Source: Lachnospiraceae bacterium (GTDB lineage Bacteria > Bacillota > Clostridia > Lachnospirales > Lachnospiraceae). From it: a stretch of DNA of 45,847 nucleotides. The notes beneath the pieces are model-generated. The model had not been told where the DNA came from, ran no database searches, and worked only from the letters and a program-made list of their open reading frames with translations. Each line of letters starts with the position of its first letter. Positions within the stretch are counted from its first letter, which is position 1. Below are positions 23,560 through 31,443 of the stretch, piece after piece. The stretch lies in the NCBI GenBank assembly GCA_017467805.1, contig JAFUKJ010000061.1, positions 1 to 45,847 on the forward strand, read 5' to 3'. A program made the position numbers and the translations under genes.

Positions 23560-25512
23560 TCAGCCTATCTCCTCAAGCTCCAATTCTGTTTCCATCATGC
23601 GTTCTAACAGAGTCTCCTGCTGATGCTCCTCGGCATCCAATAAATTCTGCAATTCCATCAGCTTCTGATAATCTGTTGCCAATGCGGGGTCCATTAATTG
23701 CATTTGAAGCTCTGCTGCCTTTGCCTCACTTTCTGCAAGCTGCTTTTCATATTTCTTTAACTGATTTTCCAGACGGGACTTAATCTTTCCAGGATTATAG
23801 TAGGTCTTCTTGTCAAAGACATCCTCAAGTGTTGGATTCTTCTCTTGTGCTGCTTTCTGTGATATTCCTACCTGACTTGCCACATTGGCTGTTCTCTGTA
23901 GCTTCTCTTTTTCATCCAGATACGCTTGATAATCACCACGATACTGCTTGACCTCCTGCGTGCCAAACTCCAGAATACCTGTTGCGACCTGCTTGATAAA
24001 ATATCTATCATGAGATACAAACAAGACAGTTCCAGGAAAATCCTGTAGCATCTTTTCTAACGCTTCCTTTCCAATCATATCCATATGGTTAGTAGGCTCA
24101 TCCAGTATCAATAGATTCGGCTTTGTCTGAAACATCTTGCACAATGCCAGTCGTACCTTCTCGCCACCCGAGAGCTGCCCCATCTTCTTCATAACCTCTT
24201 CCTGCGAAAACATAAAGCTTCCAAGAGCACTTCTGACATCCTCTCGTAAGAGCTTAGGATACTCCTCCCAGAAGTTATCCAGTACCGTCTGCTCAGGGTC
24301 TGCATCATTTACAACAGCTCTTTGCTGGTCAAAATACCCCCATTCTACATTCGGACCTATGGTAAAGCTACCTCCAAGAGGCTCGAGCATACCTACTATT
24401 GTTTTCAAAAGTGTAGACTTTCCCTTGCCATTCTCTCCAAGAATAGCAATTTTCTCTCCCTTTTTTAATTGAAAGGATACTTCACTCAATACCTTGTCAT
24501 AACCGATTGCCAGCTTTCTTGCCGTCAATACGTCGGTATAGCTTTCAATCCTTGGGGTAAACATAGCACGGAAGGTCTTAGTGTCAAAGCGTCTTGGCTT
24601 CTCAATCTTCACCATATGCTCAATCGCCATACGTTTAGAGCGTGTTGCCGCAACCTTTGTTGGCGTATTCTTCCACTTCTCTATCCACTCCGTCAGACGA
24701 GCAATCTCCTTTTGCTGTTCCTCGTAATCCTTCTCCTGCTTGATCAAATCCTCTTCCTTACGCTTCATAAAGGCAGAATAATTTCCCGGATAACGTTTGA
24801 TTCGATGATATTCAATCTCATAGGTAACATCGATAATTCTGTCCAAAAACATACGGTCATGAGACACAATGACCACTGCCTTGTCATATTCCTTCAAATA
24901 TCCCTCTAACCACTCAATGGTCGGCAAGTCCAAATGGTTGGTAGGCTCATCTAAAAGCATAATGTCAGGTCTGCTTAAGAGAAGCTTCATAAACGCAACC
25001 TTCGTCTGCTGTCCCCCTGAAAAGCTTCCAATTGAACGTGCTAAATCCTCGAGCGGAAATCCAAAGCTCTGAAACATAACCTCCATATCTCTTCGCCATG
25101 TATAGCCTCGTAATGCCTCCATCTGCTTTTGAAGGTTATCGTATTCATACATCAAGGACTGCTCTCCCGTTTGCATACTTTCCTCAATCTCCTTCATACG
25201 AGCTTCGCATGCAAACACTGGCGCAAATGCCTTCTTAATCTCCTCTTCTACCGTAACCTCTCCATCCTCAAAACTAATCTGACGCAGAAAGCCTATCTGC
25301 TGCTTTCCTGCCATCGTAATACCACATTCCTCATCGCTATCAAGATTAGCCATCTTGATTTCCTCAGCAATCAGCTTGAGCAGGGTAGTTTTTCCACAAC
25401 CATTACGTCCTACCACTGCAATTTTCTCGCTGTCATGTATCTCGAAATTCACATCCTCTAATATGGTATCCGCCGCATACTGTACAATCGCATGCTTTAT
25501 CTGATATCTCAT
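23560..25512 (-). CDS. ABC-F family ATPase
   Basis: The 650-residue protein has two ATPase domains and no membrane helices. The first has Walker A GRNGCGKTT, signature FSGGQ and Walker B MLLDEPTNHLD; the second has GENGKGKST, LSGGE and LILDEPTNHMD. Between them lies the charged P-site interaction linker, and a C-terminal coiled coil ends the chain. ABC-F proteins bind the ribosomal E site and either help stalled translation or protect against antibiotics; which applies here is open. Its start overlaps the rsgA stop (ATGA) behind GGAGGAG, so the two are coupled. A leader ORF and terminator upstream of rsgA suggest attenuation. Confidence 0.93.
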   Translation of the reverse strand: MRYQIKHAIVQYAADTILEDVNFEIHDSEKIAVVGRNGCGKTTLLKLIAEEIKMANLDSDEECGITMAGKQQIGFLRQISFEDGEVTVEEEIKKAFAPVFACEARMKEIEESMQTGEQSLMYEYDNLQKQMEALRGYTWRRDMEVMFQSFGFPLEDLARSIGSFSGGQQTKVAFMKLLLSRPDIMLLDEPTNHLDLPTIEWLEGYLKEYDKAVVIVSHDRMFLDRIIDVTYEIEYHRIKRYPGNYSAFMKRKEEDLIKQEKDYEEQQKEIARLTEWIEKWKNTPTKVAATRSKRMAIEHMVKIEKPRRFDTKTFRAMFTPRIESYTDVLTARKLAIGYDKVLSEVSFQLKKGEKIAILGENGKGKSTLLKTIVGMLEPLGGSFTIGPNVEWGYFDQQRAVVNDADPEQTVLDNFWEEYPKLLREDVRSALGSFMFSQEEVMKKMGQLSGGEKVRLALCKMFQTKPNLLILDEPTNHMDMIGKEALEKMLQDFPGTVLFVSHDRYFIKQVATGILEFGTQEVKQYRGDYQAYLDEKEKLQRTANVASQVGISQKAAQEKNPTLEDVFDKKTYYNPGKIKSRLENQLKKYEKQLAESEAKAAELQMQLMDPALATDYQKLMELQNLLDAEEHQQETLLERMMETELELEEIG

Positions 25513-26519
25513 GTTCTCCTCCTCATTGCCTTTTCCATTCGCCTTTGTATAATCGCTTTCTTTTCTCTTGCAAAGGCTTCTTCTCGTTGCATATGCAAAT
25601 ATGTATTCCATCGTCTCTCGTCTAGACTTCCATCCTCTAATGCACTTCTTATCGCACATCCCGGTTCCGTCTTATGTCCACAATTTGAAAATCTACACCT
25701 TGTAAAAAGTTCCTCTACATCCTCATATGATGTCTGTAAGCCCTCATCGACATCGCTAACAGTTAATTTACGAATTCCCGGTGTATCAATGATTCTTCCG
25801 CCACCAGCAATCACTTCTCCATTCGGTAGAGTAATCTCCTTGGGCAGATTCATACACTGCTTATAGGTAGTCGTATGTCTTCCCTGAGCATCGGCTTCTC
25901 TGATACCACCTGTCAGCATTTCTTCCTTCCCCATAACCATATTAACAAAAGAAGACTTCCCTACACCTGACGACCCAAGCAACACTGTTGTCTTTCCACC
26001 TTGGAAAAATCTCTCCAGCTGCGCAACGCCTTCACCTGTTACCGAACTTACGCAATAAATCTCCACTCCTGGTGCTACTGACTCTGCCTGTACCACATAG
26101 TCTTGTGGATTCTCACACAAATCGGCCTTAGTCAAAATGATAATCGGAATACCACCGCTTTGCCAGGCTACTGTTACGTATCGCTCTAGCTTCGACAAAT
26201 GAAAATCCCTATTCATCGACATTGTAATAAACACATAATCAAAATTTGCCGCCACTGCCAGGTCATTCTGCCCTTGGGTTACATTCTGACGCATAAATAC
26301 TGACTTTCTAGGTAGTACCTTAGTGATTAAACTATCACCAAGCTCATTTCTTATTAGCTCCACTTCGTCTCCCACTGTTGGGAAATCAATCATCTCCTCC
26401 GTGTTGTAAAAGCACGATGTTTTTAATCTGCCGTACAGCCCTTCCTCTCCTACACTAAGCTCATAGCGTTCACGATGTACCGCTGTTACTGTTGCAATCT
26501 GTTTGTTTTCTAAATTCAT
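25509..26519 (-). CDS. rsgA: Ribosome small-subunit GTPase RsgA
   Basis: The 336-residue protein is a circularly permuted GTPase that acts in late 30S maturation. An OB-fold comes first. The GTPase motifs then appear in permuted order: G4 LTKADL, G1 GSSGVGKSS and G3 DTPGI. A C-terminal zinc-binding segment CRFSNCGHKTEPGC completes the family pattern. I start at 26519 because GGAGAG lies upstream; the longer in-frame reading crosses hairpins at 26617-26663. It is the first gene of a two-gene operon with the ABC-F protein, both acting on ribosomes. Confidence 0.93.
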   Translation of the reverse strand: MNLENKQIATVTAVHRERYELSVGEEGLYGRLKTSCFYNTEEMIDFPTVGDEVELIRNELGDSLITKVLPRKSVFMRQNVTQGQNDLAVAANFDYVFITMSMNRDFHLSKLERYVTVAWQSGGIPIIILTKADLCENPQDYVVQAESVAPGVEIYCVSSVTGEGVAQLERFFQGGKTTVLLGSSGVGKSSFVNMVMGKEEMLTGGIREADAQGRHTTTYKQCMNLPKEITLPNGEVIAGGGRIIDTPGIRKLTVSDVDEGLQTSYEDVEELFTRCRFSNCGHKTEPGCAIRSALEDGSLDERRWNTYLHMQREEAFAREKKAIIQRRMEKAMRRRT

Positions 26520-26616
26520 TTTGTTCTCTCCATTCACATACAATACATTAATATTCCTACAAGTAGTTGTCAGGAACAACCATTGTGTAGTTTGTACGTG
26601 AAACCAGAGTTCGAAT

Positions 26617-26663
26617 AGAATGTGCAACAGCACATTCTCGCATCGAGTGCGGTCGCTTGCGAC
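26617..26663 (-). other. Hairpin cluster in the rsgA leader
   Basis: A perfect 9-bp stem (AGAATGTGC at 26617-26625 with GCACATTCT at 26630-26638) is followed by two smaller ones: GCATCGAGTGC near 26640 and GTCGCTTGCGAC near 26652. All lie between the leader terminator and rsgA, so they belong to the read-through transcript. Their role is unknown. Confidence 0.6.
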
Positions 26664-26686
26664 ATATTCTTTTCGCACGAGTACGC

Positions 26687-26722
26687 AAAAAAAAAATCGT
26701 GGTACTCAAACGAATACCACGA
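26687..26722 (-). terminator. Strong intrinsic terminator after the leader ORF
   Basis: On the minus strand TCGTGGTA pairs with TACCACGA (26715-26722 with 26697-26704) and is followed by ten T (26687-26696). It lies 32 bp past the 22-codon ORF and about 170 bp before rsgA, so it either ends a small transcript or attenuates the rsgA operon. Confidence 0.9.
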
Positions 26723-26754
26723 CAAATAATCATAGACCTTTATGAAACAAATCT

Positions 26755-26823
26755 TTATCTATTCTCAACCGAGGTAATCACGTACAATATGAAGTTCTTC
26801 TCAATAGCTGTTCTCTTATTCAT
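26755..26823 (-). CDS. 22-residue leader peptide or small protein
   Basis: An ATG at 26823 follows a near-perfect Shine-Dalgarno AAGGAGGT (26831-26838) at ideal spacing and opens a 22-codon frame. The peptide begins MNKRTAIEKN and ends ITSVENR. It has a positively charged start, a central hydrophobic patch (FILYVI) and no cysteine. A sigma-A promoter lies 45 bp upstream and a strong terminator 32 bp downstream, so this is a complete tiny transcription unit. I infer a leader ORF controlling rsgA and the ABC-F gene by attenuation; a free-standing small protein is the alternative. I do not recognise the peptide. Confidence 0.7.
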   Translation of the reverse strand: MNKRTAIEKNFILYVITSVENR

Positions 26824-26866
26824 CGCTTTTACCTCCTTAAATTCTTTAAATTTCAACTACTTGTTT

Positions 26867-26896
26867 ATCATATACCTAACATTCTGATATTGTCAA
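26867..26896 (-). promoter_or_regulatory. Sigma-A promoter of the leader ORF/rsgA operon
   Basis: On the minus strand a perfect TTGACA (26891-26896), an 18-bp spacer and TATGAT (26867-26872) lie just after the stop codon of the flavin reductase gene. No terminator separates the two units. Confidence 0.8.
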
Positions 26897-27658: not shown

Positions 27659-29488
27659 TTATGCGTAATACACCGCCTGTGCATTCCAAAGGTCAGAGTA
27701 TAGGCCTTCCTGTTTTACCAGCTCCTCGTGAGAGCCTCGCTGCACCACTGTTCCTTTATCAAATACGAGAATATCCTCGCAGAATCTACACGATGCTAAT
27801 CTATGGGAAATGTAAATTGCCGTCTTATTTCCTACCATCTTATCAAAGCCTGCAAAGACCTCACACTCTGACACTGGGTCGAGAGCTGCCGTAGGCTCAT
27901 CCATAATGACAAACGGCGCATTCTTATATATCGCTCTGGCGATTGCCATCTTCTGCTTCTCTCCACCAGAAAATGAAACACCCTCTTCTGCAAAATCCTT
28001 GCCAACATAAGTATTCAGCCCGTCTGGAAGCGTGGCAATTCTTTCTCCAAGTCCCGCTTTTGTCAATGCATCCAAAGCGCGCTCCTCATCTACCTGCTCA
28101 CTCGCTGCCACATTTTCTCCTACTGGAAATGCAAACATTCTAAAATCCTGAAATACCACAGCAAACAAGCTGCAATATTCCTGATAGTCAAACTTTCTGA
28201 TATCAATACCGTTTACCTTGATACACCCTTCAGTCACATCATATAAACGACAAAGAAGCTTGATAAATGTAGTCTTACCTGAACCATTTTTCCCTACAAT
28301 TGCCATCTTCTCGCCAATTGTAAACTTCAAATTCAAATCCTTAATAATATCCTGCTCTGTTCCTGGATAGCGGAAGGAAACATGCTCAAACTCCACGGAA
28401 AATTTATTATCTCTTCGCTTCTCCATTGGGATAGTACCTTCATATTTACGCTTAGAAAGGCTCATATATTCAACGTAGTCTTTGCAGTACAAGCCAACTG
28501 TATTCAGATTCGCCATTGCCACCGCACACTTTGCCACAGCCATAGAAAATCGTAATATACTTGAAGCATAGGTTACTACTCCGCCAATCGTAATCATGCC
28601 TGCATAGGCACGAAGTCCTGTGAACAGGTACACCAATAGTCCTGACAGGTCGGAAAGTCCCTGTCCTACACATTCGCGCTTTGTAAAGATTGATGCAAGT
28701 CTTTCCTTTCCATCTATTACATTTTGATTACTTACTTCTATATCATTCTCGATAAGCTCCTGTTGAGCATAGATACGCAAATCCTTCTGTGACTCTATCC
28801 CCGCAAGCTTATCCAGATAGTAATTTCTTCTATTATAATCCTTTGTCAGCTTGTCATATTCGTCCTTACTGCGTCTGGCGACTACATCATTATACTTATA
28901 ATTGATTGCAACAAAGACACAAACTACCGCAAACAAAAGCACCGAGCTTACCCAAGAGCAAATAAAACCCTCTCCCTGCTTAGATGAAATAAATAGAGGA
29001 ATCATAATAACAAGCGCCAAAACAATAGAAACTACAGACGTTAGTATCTGCTCAAAACGATACAATAACCAACCAGACATTCCAATATAATTCCCCTCTG
29101 CCTGACTCTTATATCGAAGCTCCTGCACACGCGGCTCTTCCAAATACTCATAATCCATGGACAAAGACTTTCTGTTCAATAGCTCTGCTTCGATTTCCTT
29201 AATATATTCGTTCTTCTGATTATACCACTCTCGAATTCTTGCCTCGATTAATCGAAGTAACATATTAACCCCAAGAGCTATCAATGCGTATTTGAGCAGT
29301 TCTTCTATGCCTGCCCCTGCATACACCGCATCCAGCAAAAATCCCATCAGCACAATGCTAATAAAAGGTCTGACACCTCCAAGAATCGACAAGAGTACAC
29401 TATTTATCAGCATATCCTTATTCTGCTTTGCGAAGTCCTTTAGAAAAATGACAACATATTTCCACTCTATTTTATCTGCCTTATTCAT
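27659..29488 (-). CDS. ABC exporter subunit (second of pair)
   Basis: The 609-residue protein has an N-terminal membrane domain of about six helices and an ATPase domain with Walker A GKNGSGKTT, signature FSGGEKQK, Walker B VIMDEPTAALD and switch ISHRLAS. All catalytic positions are intact, unlike the exporter at 13.6 kb. Its ATG (29488) follows GGAGGG and overlaps the end of the upstream exporter gene by 8 bp, so the two probably form a heterodimer. The agr cassette and an XRE regulator lie just upstream; peptide or antimicrobial export is plausible but unproven. Confidence 0.9.
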   Translation of the reverse strand: MNKADKIEWKYVVIFLKDFAKQNKDMLINSVLLSILGGVRPFISIVLMGFLLDAVYAGAGIEELLKYALIALGVNMLLRLIEARIREWYNQKNEYIKEIEAELLNRKSLSMDYEYLEEPRVQELRYKSQAEGNYIGMSGWLLYRFEQILTSVVSIVLALVIMIPLFISSKQGEGFICSWVSSVLLFAVVCVFVAINYKYNDVVARRSKDEYDKLTKDYNRRNYYLDKLAGIESQKDLRIYAQQELIENDIEVSNQNVIDGKERLASIFTKRECVGQGLSDLSGLLVYLFTGLRAYAGMITIGGVVTYASSILRFSMAVAKCAVAMANLNTVGLYCKDYVEYMSLSKRKYEGTIPMEKRRDNKFSVEFEHVSFRYPGTEQDIIKDLNLKFTIGEKMAIVGKNGSGKTTFIKLLCRLYDVTEGCIKVNGIDIRKFDYQEYCSLFAVVFQDFRMFAFPVGENVAASEQVDEERALDALTKAGLGERIATLPDGLNTYVGKDFAEEGVSFSGGEKQKMAIARAIYKNAPFVIMDEPTAALDPVSECEVFAGFDKMVGNKTAIYISHRLASCRFCEDILVFDKGTVVQRGSHEELVKQEGLYSDLWNAQAVYYA

Positions 29489-31388
29489 TGAAAATGCCCT
29501 CCTTTCCTGATTCATCCTCCACATAGGAGTCGCCCATAATTTCACTGCGTTTTCTATACTCTTCCTGCTCTTTATAATACTTGCCTTGCAGTTCGAAAAG
29601 CTCAGCATATCTGCCCTTTGCCAGCATCAATGTCTCATGAGTTCCCTCTTCTATAATACTTCCATTCTCCAATAAGATAATACGATCACAGAAACGTGTA
29701 CTGGATAATCTATGCGAGATATAAATAGAGGTTCTGCCCTGTGTCGCCTCACTGAAATTCTGATACAAGGCATTCTCTGCAATCGGGTCAAGTGCCGCCG
29801 TCGGCTCATCTAATAACATCAACTGCGAATCCTTATATAAAGCTCTTGCAAACAACAATTTCTGCTTCTCTCCACCCGAATAATCAAGCGCACTGTCATT
29901 TACCTCACGTACCAGCAAGGTCTCGCCTTTCTCAGGAAGGCTATTATACTTCTCTTCAAAGCCCGACATAGAAAGCGCCCATGAAAGCTTTTCTCTGTCA
30001 ATCTCCTGCGGTGACTGTCCTGTGATATTCATATCCAATGTCACAGGAAGCAAAGTCGTATCCTGGAACAACACAGAAAGCATCTGATAGTAAGACTCTC
30101 TGTTATACGAAGTAATTGGCTTTCCATTTACGAGAATTTCACCTTCTGTAGGCTGATAAAAGCCACATATCAGCTTTACAAGTGTAGTCTTACCAGCACC
30201 ATTTAAGCCCAATAATGCCAGCTTTTCTCCTGCCCTTATCGTTAAATTAATGTTAGCCAGAGTCGGTTTCTCATTCCCTGGATAAGTGTATGAAACATTC
30301 TTGAGTTCCACAGTTACCGCACCATCTGTACGGAAGCTCTCCTTTTCCTCTTCATTATCTCCCCAAGGACTTTCAATCTCTAAAAACTCTCTCAAACTAC
30401 TAAGCTCCACGCTCATCGGTTCTAACTGCATCGCCTGACGAATCAGTGTTTCCAGATATGATGTAAAGCCGCTCGTCAAACCAAGATACAATACAAACTC
30501 CGCTACAGTCAGCTCATTGTGAACCAATAGCCATATCAAATATCCCCACGCCAGCATATCTACTAAGAATCCAATAATCGCATCTGAAACACTTCTTAAA
30601 AAATACCAGCTATGTATGCTTGCGAAAATAGAGTTCATATTCTCAAGTGCTTCATCATACTTCTTAATAAACCAGTCAAGCATCTGATAAACACGAATGT
30701 CCTTACCAGCACTGCTTTCCACTGCCTGTCTGCTGATATACGCCGCTTCCTTCGCATGTCTGCTCAGCTTCGCATGATATTCCTTATGCTTCTTTCTTGC
30801 CAAAGACAAAAGCTTCATACTGGAAATGACAGAAAACATCATCAACAGAACTAAGGTTATACTCTTACTACCTATGATAAATCCATAAAATATAATTGCC
30901 AGAATTGCTGATATGCACATAGGAAATGAACTACACGCAAGCGTAAAATTGTAACCATTTCTCAATGCCCTCCAAGCATTTCCAATTACCTTCTGCTCCT
31001 CTTCTCCTTCTAACAAGTTATAGTCCATCAGCATCATCTTACGAAAGCATCGCTTGCTCAGATATACAGGCAACAAACTGCTACAATTGGAAACATAAGT
31101 CCCCATTCCTTGTACAATCATATTGCAAATCAGCATAATCCCTGTAAGCAGACATATATACCACACCATATGTGTAACATCCCACTGCCCCTGCAACGCA
31201 CGAACTACCTCCGAAGGAATCAACGTTCCAAGATAAGATGCCGCCACCATCGGAATCACCACTATAAACTGGTAATAAAACAACTTCTTATCATTCTCAT
31301 AAGCACACTGCATACAGTATCGTATATTACTAAACAGTCCGTACTTTCCTTTCTTACGACTGCCAAACACCTGTTGAAATTCAATCAT
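29481..31388 (-). CDS. ABC exporter subunit (first of pair)
   Basis: The 635-residue exporter subunit has about six membrane helices and an ATPase domain with GLNGAGKTT, YSGGEKQK, MLLDEPTAALD and ISHRLSS; both composite sites of the pair would be complete. I start at 31388 behind GGGTAGGG, giving MIEFQQVFG; an ATG 18 codons earlier has no clear ribosome site. It is transcribed after a gap holding a nested palindrome (31444-31480), which probably controls it. Confidence 0.88.
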   Translation of the reverse strand: MIEFQQVFGSRKKGKYGLFSNIRYCMQCAYENDKKLFYYQFIVVIPMVAASYLGTLIPSEVVRALQGQWDVTHMVWYICLLTGIMLICNMIVQGMGTYVSNCSSLLPVYLSKRCFRKMMLMDYNLLEGEEEQKVIGNAWRALRNGYNFTLACSSFPMCISAILAIIFYGFIIGSKSITLVLLMMFSVISSMKLLSLARKKHKEYHAKLSRHAKEAAYISRQAVESSAGKDIRVYQMLDWFIKKYDEALENMNSIFASIHSWYFLRSVSDAIIGFLVDMLAWGYLIWLLVHNELTVAEFVLYLGLTSGFTSYLETLIRQAMQLEPMSVELSSLREFLEIESPWGDNEEEKESFRTDGAVTVELKNVSYTYPGNEKPTLANINLTIRAGEKLALLGLNGAGKTTLVKLICGFYQPTEGEILVNGKPITSYNRESYYQMLSVLFQDTTLLPVTLDMNITGQSPQEIDREKLSWALSMSGFEEKYNSLPEKGETLLVREVNDSALDYSGGEKQKLLFARALYKDSQLMLLDEPTAALDPIAENALYQNFSEATQGRTSIYISHRLSSTRFCDRIILLENGSIIEEGTHETLMLAKGRYAELFELQGKYYKEQEEYRKRSEIMGDSYVEDESGKEGIFNE

Positions 31389-31443
31389 ATCAATAATCCC
31401 TACCCTTCCAATTCCTGCACAAGATATAAAACCCAATCTCATA

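Follow-up and report, generated by a model that had tools for sequence, protein, structure and literature searches.

A leader open reading frame with three competing strands as a probable transcription attenuator upstream of an accessory RsgA gene in Lachnospiraceae

Leaders in which a translating ribosome decides between transcription termination and readthrough are already known from vmlR, hflXr and bmrBCD, which we cite here from excerpts of the respective reports. In Bacillus subtilis, the leader of the ABC-F gene vmlR combines an upstream open reading frame (uORF) in an anti-antiterminator stem with an antiterminator and a terminator, and ribosome stalling on the uORF induces the gene (PMC9226507). 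The rli80-hflXr locus of Listeria monocytogenes has a leader ORF of 14 codons over an anti-anti-terminator, followed by a terminator, and it encodes a paralogue of the ribosome GTPase HflX (PMC6310831). A leader ORF also governs ribosome-mediated transcription attenuation at bmrB-bmrCD of B. subtilis (PMC4191407), and uORF-controlled attenuation of an ABC-F gene has been described in a clostridial species, Clostridioides difficile (cplR; PMC10201436). Here, we analyze a leader of the same kind in a 45,847-nucleotide stretch of DNA from a Lachnospiraceae bacterium (GenBank assembly GCA_017467805.1, contig JAFUKJ010000061.1; hereafter, the window). It precedes the genes of an RsgA paralogue (rsgA2), where Listeria has the paralogue of HflX, and of an ABC-F protein. 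All named parts of leader and operon lie on the minus strand (Table 1).

Judging from the sequences compared, the leader very probably attenuates transcription in a ribosome-mediated manner, by means of three strands that compete for pairing, and is switched on when a ribosome stalls within approximately codons 1 to 10 of its ORF. We regard the element as real and conserved, and its mechanism as likely. A leader ORF with ribosome site, predicted to be translated, lies between the promoter and an intrinsic terminator, and sequence and covariation point to mutually exclusive anti-antiterminator, antiterminator and terminator structures. An earlier note, made from the sequence alone, had described a perfect TTGACA promoter, a ribosome site, a 22-codon ORF, a strong terminator, rsgA and the ABC-F gene in this order; all were located as described, the whole promoter matching at 11 of 12 positions and the terminator being a 12-pair hairpin followed by a T run. 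The note had also proposed a candidate antiterminator between a stretch of the ORF (region 2) and the 5' arm of the terminator (region 3). Our hand count gave the same 10 of 12 paired positions, G-U included (26779-26768 with 26723-26712), and this pairing is conserved and covaries among relatives. A lone 10-of-12 match would prove little; the pairing exceeds chance by its specificity for the own partner across 49 elements. The note's scheme lacked the anti-antiterminator partner, which is the leader's own ribosome site (region 1): positions 26835-26829 are perfectly complementary to 26777-26771 over seven base pairs. The minimum-energy fold of the leader pairs the ribosome site with UUACCUC inside the ORF, so that region 2 has two partners. 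The observation in the note is confirmed, and its interpretation is partly supported, being largely right and incomplete.

On a leader without a ribosome, regions 1 and 2 would pair (1:2) and leave region 3 free for the terminator, so that transcription would stop. Under fast translation, the ribosome reaching the leader stop codon would sit on region 2, and the terminator would again form. A ribosome stalled or lingering within approximately codons 1 to 10 would instead hold 1:2 open and free region 2; pairing of regions 2 and 3 (2:3) would then form first, and RNA polymerase would continue into rsgA2 and the ABC-F gene. This three-state scheme therefore predicts that output is raised by slowed early elongation, for instance when drugs act on the ribosome or when ribosomes remain at the start codon. 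We infer the order and kinetics of folding, the inducing signal and the relief of translation stress by the products.

Comparison among relatives defines the parts, both pairings and the geometry of the leader. Regions 1, 2 and 3 were cut from 49 elements (39 plus 10 from the window's genus), and own partners were set against partners swapped between elements; the window was represented by its 96% relative L032, except in set A3, where the window stands for L032. The terminator was placed by hand in 10 of the 49, where the automatic choice failed or picked another hairpin. Own partners formed more flank pairs than swapped ones (4.24 versus 3.55 for 1:2; 5.73 versus 4.63 for 2:3) and more stable duplexes (-13.8 versus -11.4 and -11.9 versus -9.7 kcal/mol, respectively), and the observed value was reached in 0 of 20000 permutations for each of the four measures. 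Redundancy was removed by greedy representatives; single-linkage had merged all 49 elements into one group. The 35 elements below 75% identity again gave 0 of 20000 in all four measures. With 17 elements below 65% identity, permutations reached the observed pair counts and energies 0 and 0 times for 2:3 and 137 and 41 times for 1:2, and with nine elements below 60% identity they still did so only 5 and 1 times of 20000 for 2:3. On the 35 aligned rows, 1:2 is 79.3% paired versus 35.7-48.3% in slid registers, and 2:3 is 76.7% paired versus 39.5-54.8%, with 0 of 500 shuffles as high in either case; the covariation scores were reached by 1 and 0 of 500 shuffles, respectively, and the own register of 2:3 outdoes all six shifted ones. 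These swap and shuffle controls, which remove relatedness among the elements only in part, indicate that both pairings are under selection.

The leader ORFs span 19 to 40 codons (median, 22), and all 49 start with ATG and contain region 2. The first C of CCTC lies 17 nucleotides from the stop codon in 31 of the 49 (20 of the 35 nonredundant elements). Known ribosome footprints give grounds for placing a terminating ribosome over region 2, and at this distance a ribosome at the leader stop would therefore cover it. Region 2 reads ACC TCG in 45 of the 49 leaders and CCT CGG in L143, L144, L153 and L160, which use another frame and encode LPR in place of TS; thus, RNA letters rather than peptide residues are kept. 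Promoter-like sites matching at least 9 of 12 positions precede 36 of the 49 elements, versus 14% of mononucleotide shuffles, and sites matching at least 10 of 12 precede 31, versus 2%. The macrolide-type stall motif Lys/Arg-x-Lys/Arg showed no enrichment in leader codons 2-11 (7 of 35 elements; 7.4 in shuffles).

To chart the element in the family, we trained a covariance model (R1) on 23 leaders; it runs from the ribosome site as far as region 2 and omits the terminator (80 positions, 9 pairs). The window's own leader matches it at 26843-26766 with 51.3 bits (expectation value E of 2.6e-8 in its own genome). Matches at E <= 0.1 occur in 57 of 397 family genomes. Our counts rest on E <= 0.0013, leaving out 22 matches at E 0.0034-0.1; this yielded 40 matches beside the window's own, 39 of which, from 34 genomes, show a leader ORF and then a terminator. 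Sixteen of the 40 belonged to the training set, and 23 of the remaining 24 have both features, though the model holds no terminator. The remaining match of the 40, L161, was coding sequence and was dropped as false before counting. Rfam gave no match at gathering score, either at the window's element or at 16 loci bearing relatives. Among 291 genomes sampled from the class, R1 matched in nine at E <= 0.01; five matches outside the family (E 7.6e-4 to 6.2e-3) were ordinary coding sequence by eye, with no terminator seen. Since these five look spurious, the element seems to be confined to Lachnospiraceae.

Folding agrees with the scheme when the transcript is cut before the 3' arm of the terminator. 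On such a transcript, the window's 1:2 pairing has a probability of 0.99 without a ribosome, whereas with the peptidyl (P) site at codons 1-10, 2:3 reaches 0.55-0.84, falling to 0.06 at codon 11. Across the 49 elements, 1:2 exceeds 0.5 in 38 and 2:3 in six without a ribosome; with a ribosome at codon 7, 2:3 exceeds 0.5 in 48. The local fold of 26860-26680 is barely more stable than shuffles (z of -1.3).

Several points weigh against the stalling-controlled attenuator, the broadest being that all of its support comes from sequence. The folding test relied on the cut transcript and on a fixed ribosome footprint of our own choosing. In the full-length fold, the terminator (-17.6 kcal/mol) outweighs 2:3 (-9.5 kcal/mol), so that the on state must be kinetic. 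Among the nine elements below 60% identity, 1:2 is weak: its observed pair count and energy were reached in 5045 and 503 of 20000 permutations, and pair counts do not support it at this level because 5045 of 20000 reach the observed value. Pairs with changes on both sides are not above shuffles (reached in 151 of 500 for 1:2 and 359 of 500 for 2:3). Region 2 is degenerate in L037, a relative from the genus, although its locus is among the 12 R1-positive paralogue loci. A simple pattern search (GAGGTAN{38,68}TTACCTCGG) produced 26 matches in 25 of the 397 genomes, about half of them coding by eye, and fewer than its reversed control; because the control gave more, the search was abandoned for the covariance model.

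Other explanations fare differently against this evidence. The hairpin might simply terminate transcription coming from upstream, the ORF before it being fortuitous and rsgA2 having its own promoter behind it; a flavin reductase gene followed by a terminator-like hairpin is indeed nothing unusual. The promoter scan is crude and listed no minus-strand site in 26680-26519, where the note had envisaged an independent promoter; this is weak evidence because the scan found 12 sites in the region against 10.1 expected by chance. However, leader ORF, own promoter and both pairings recur together with the terminator in 39 of the 40 family matches, and we consider a plain terminator very improbable. 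The three-strand logic is identical to that of a trp-type attenuator, in which ribosomes stall at hungry leader codons. Yet residues 2-11 of the 35 nonredundant leaders contain no run of a single residue (the commonest, Asn, accounts for 15%), and the genes downstream are not biosynthetic, which leaves amino-acid sensing a highly unlikely function. Least credible is a protein-binding leader, such as one for ribosomal protein autoregulation. The best sub-threshold Rfam match, L20_leader, would fit it, but its 21.4 bits (E of 0.065) fall far short of the gathering score, 58.7, and the conserved part consists of mutually pairing single strands.

The leader might also respond to initiation and not to elongation. 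In this view, 30S subunits that wait on the start codon of the leader, for instance because 50S subunits or late 30S maturation are in short supply, would hold region 1 and turn the operon on. In its favor, region 1 coincides with the ribosome site, a P site at codon 1 already gives 2:3 a probability of 0.60, and the gene behind encodes an RsgA-like assembly GTPase. Moreover, free 30S subunits accumulate when cshA is lost, and this loss induces vmlR, according to an excerpt of that report (PMC9226507). Sensing at the start codon alone would not need the long ORF or the kept geometry at its end, and we see this as a possible but rather unlikely explanation.

The note's rsgA label proved right as to the protein, which matches TIGR00157 with 143.8 bits (cut-off, 100). 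By its sequence, however, the gene is a second, accessory RsgA that does not group with housekeeping copies. The same genome holds another RsgA match (G000:C24) with 30% identity. In the family sample, a copy scoring above 190 bits occurs in 24 of 150 genomes, 23 of which have another RsgA match as well; in the window's genus, the paralogue is found in 13 of 39 genomes, each with another RsgA. The partial match L025 was left out of these counts. A 57-row tree places 35 paralogues on one side of a branch with support of 94/83, recovered in 96% of bootstrap trees; canonical row L029 forms a very long branch beside them. The RsgA of L031 is 96% identical to the window's. The rsgA2 stop codon is overlapped by the ABC-F start codon (ATGA at 25512-25509). 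The ABC-F protein is predicted to be of the ribosomal protection-like type (NF000355; 480.8 bits, cut-off 380). OptrA (NF000514) was its best match and was rejected, with 560 of the 1450 bits of its cut-off. Strong ABC-F matches within 1.5 kilobases of the paralogue are limited to 3 of 36 loci (the window, L032 and L036), and weaker ones appear in the fetched flanks of L013 and L005. No ABC-F gene was recognized directly behind the element in any of the 39 family relatives. The likeness to ABC-F leader attenuators claimed in the note therefore holds for the kind of regulator and not as a copy of them.

Behind the 39 elements lie an RsgA paralogue in 20, eight of them fused behind a GNAT domain, two consecutive ABC exporter genes in 8, a GNAT gene in 3 (the L137 match spans just 61 residues), a PF09818 ATPase in 3, and other or unreadable genes in 5 (L122, L133, L134, L148 and L154). 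Pfam was run on one member per type for the fusions, GNATs, PF09818 proteins and exporters. The GNAT-RsgA fusions, of about 525-535 residues, all stand behind the leader (L123, L131, L136, L139, L151, L155, L157 and L159). The PF09818 P-loop ATPases follow it in L143, L153 and L160, and in L126 a gene for an RNHCP-domain protein separates leader and RsgA paralogue. RqcH was ruled out as the L148 target, being separated from the leader by a small ORF and about 500 nucleotides.

Viewed from the paralogue, R1 leaders are present at 12 of 13 genus loci, the window's included, and at 9 of 23 other family loci. Inspection by eye of these loci brought out the repeated arrangement GAGGTAAT ... ATTACCTCGG ... 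CCGTGGTA. Eight of the 23 have a different kind of leader by eye, and six have none within the fetched 1.5 kilobases. The second kind (L002, L003, L004, L005, L006, L007, L008 and L010) begins with a (G)AAAGGAG or AAAGG ribosome site and an ORF about 9-11 codons long, followed by a hairpin, by ACCUUUCGUGA or a variant of it, and lastly by a terminator. It possibly follows the same logic with other letters.

Table 1. Parts of the leader and operon in the window
Feature	Coordinates	Strand	Basis
Promoter: TTGACA (26896-26891), 18-nucleotide spacer, TATGAT (26872-26867)	26867..26896	-	Promoter scan, 11/12
Region 1: leader ORF ribosome site GGAGGTAA and anti-antiterminator strand pairing with region 2	26829..26836	-	Sequence, covariation
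Leader ORF: 22 codons plus stop, predicted product MNKRTAIEKNFILYVITSVENR	26755..26823	-	ORF translation
Region 2: within leader codons 15-19, partner of region 1 or region 3	26768..26779	-	Pairing, covariation, folding
Region 3: terminator 5' arm, pairs with region 2 in the antiterminator	26712..26723	-	Pairing, covariation
Intrinsic terminator: hairpin 26723-26696 (12 pairs), T run reaching 26687	26687..26723	-	Terminator scan, sequence
RsgA paralogue gene (rsgA2)	25509..26519	-	TIGR00157 above cut-off; tree
ABC-F protein gene	23560..25512	-	Above NF000355 cut-off

Elsewhere in the window, the interval between terminator and rsgA2 (26590-26690) carries inverted repeats; this interval is mostly missing from L032 and has five partial copies elsewhere in the genome. 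Two adjacent ABC exporter-like genes lie upstream (27659-31442), the R1 leader being the single one in the window, and a class A RNase P RNA is encoded on the minus strand at 493-858.

A bolder and more tentative idea, which we hold possible though short of probable, is that one RNA switch joins an unrecognized translation-stress regulon of Lachnospiraceae (RsgA2, GNAT-RsgA, ABC-F, GNATs and paired exporters, all raised by whatever slows early elongation), with the second RsgA as an inducible factor for 30S protection or re-maturation. By analogy, RsgA2 would serve the small subunit as HflXr serves stalled 70S ribosomes. If so, a major group of anaerobes would have a defined sensor of ribosome stalling that can be sought by sequence, and there would be a readable list of the genes called on under ribosome blockage. 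RsgA2 and the GNAT-RsgA fusion would become candidate stress or resistance factors, a role not found in the searched literature. A design of three strands, one of them the ribosome site, lends itself to clear tests by single and compensating changes in ten-letter stretches.

Titles and abstract beginnings in the searched literature library revealed no leader-ORF-controlled RsgA gene, GNAT-RsgA fusion or element like the present one. According to the excerpts available of each report, the described systems depart from it at different points. The vmlR leader has a three-codon ORF (Met-Ile-Asn) in the bulge of SL-1 and a single-stranded ribosome site before SL-1 (PMC9226507); in the window, the loop holds an ORF of 22 codons, and one strand of the anti-antiterminator is formed by the ribosome site itself. 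The rli80 leader has RLR (PMC6310831), whereas the present leaders show no excess of Lys/Arg-x-Lys/Arg. At bmrB, the leader coding region contains the terminator, which in the present element follows the ORF, and the authors termed the role of the anti-anti-terminator unclear; bmrCD encodes a heterodimeric ABC exporter pair, to be compared with the exporter pairs behind 8 of the 39 elements (PMC4191407). The cplR leader hides the ribosome site of the main gene in its terminator stem, and its uORF is very short (MRI; PMC10201436). In toiL-topAI of Escherichia coli, stalling at many positions of a uORF induces, and several drug classes are thereby sensed; unlike the present element, it acts through topAI translation and Rho, with no intrinsic terminator (PMC12121999). 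What sets the present element apart from these systems is that its ribosome site takes part in the pairing and that its long ORF lies in the loop, together with its sequence family and the set of genes behind it.

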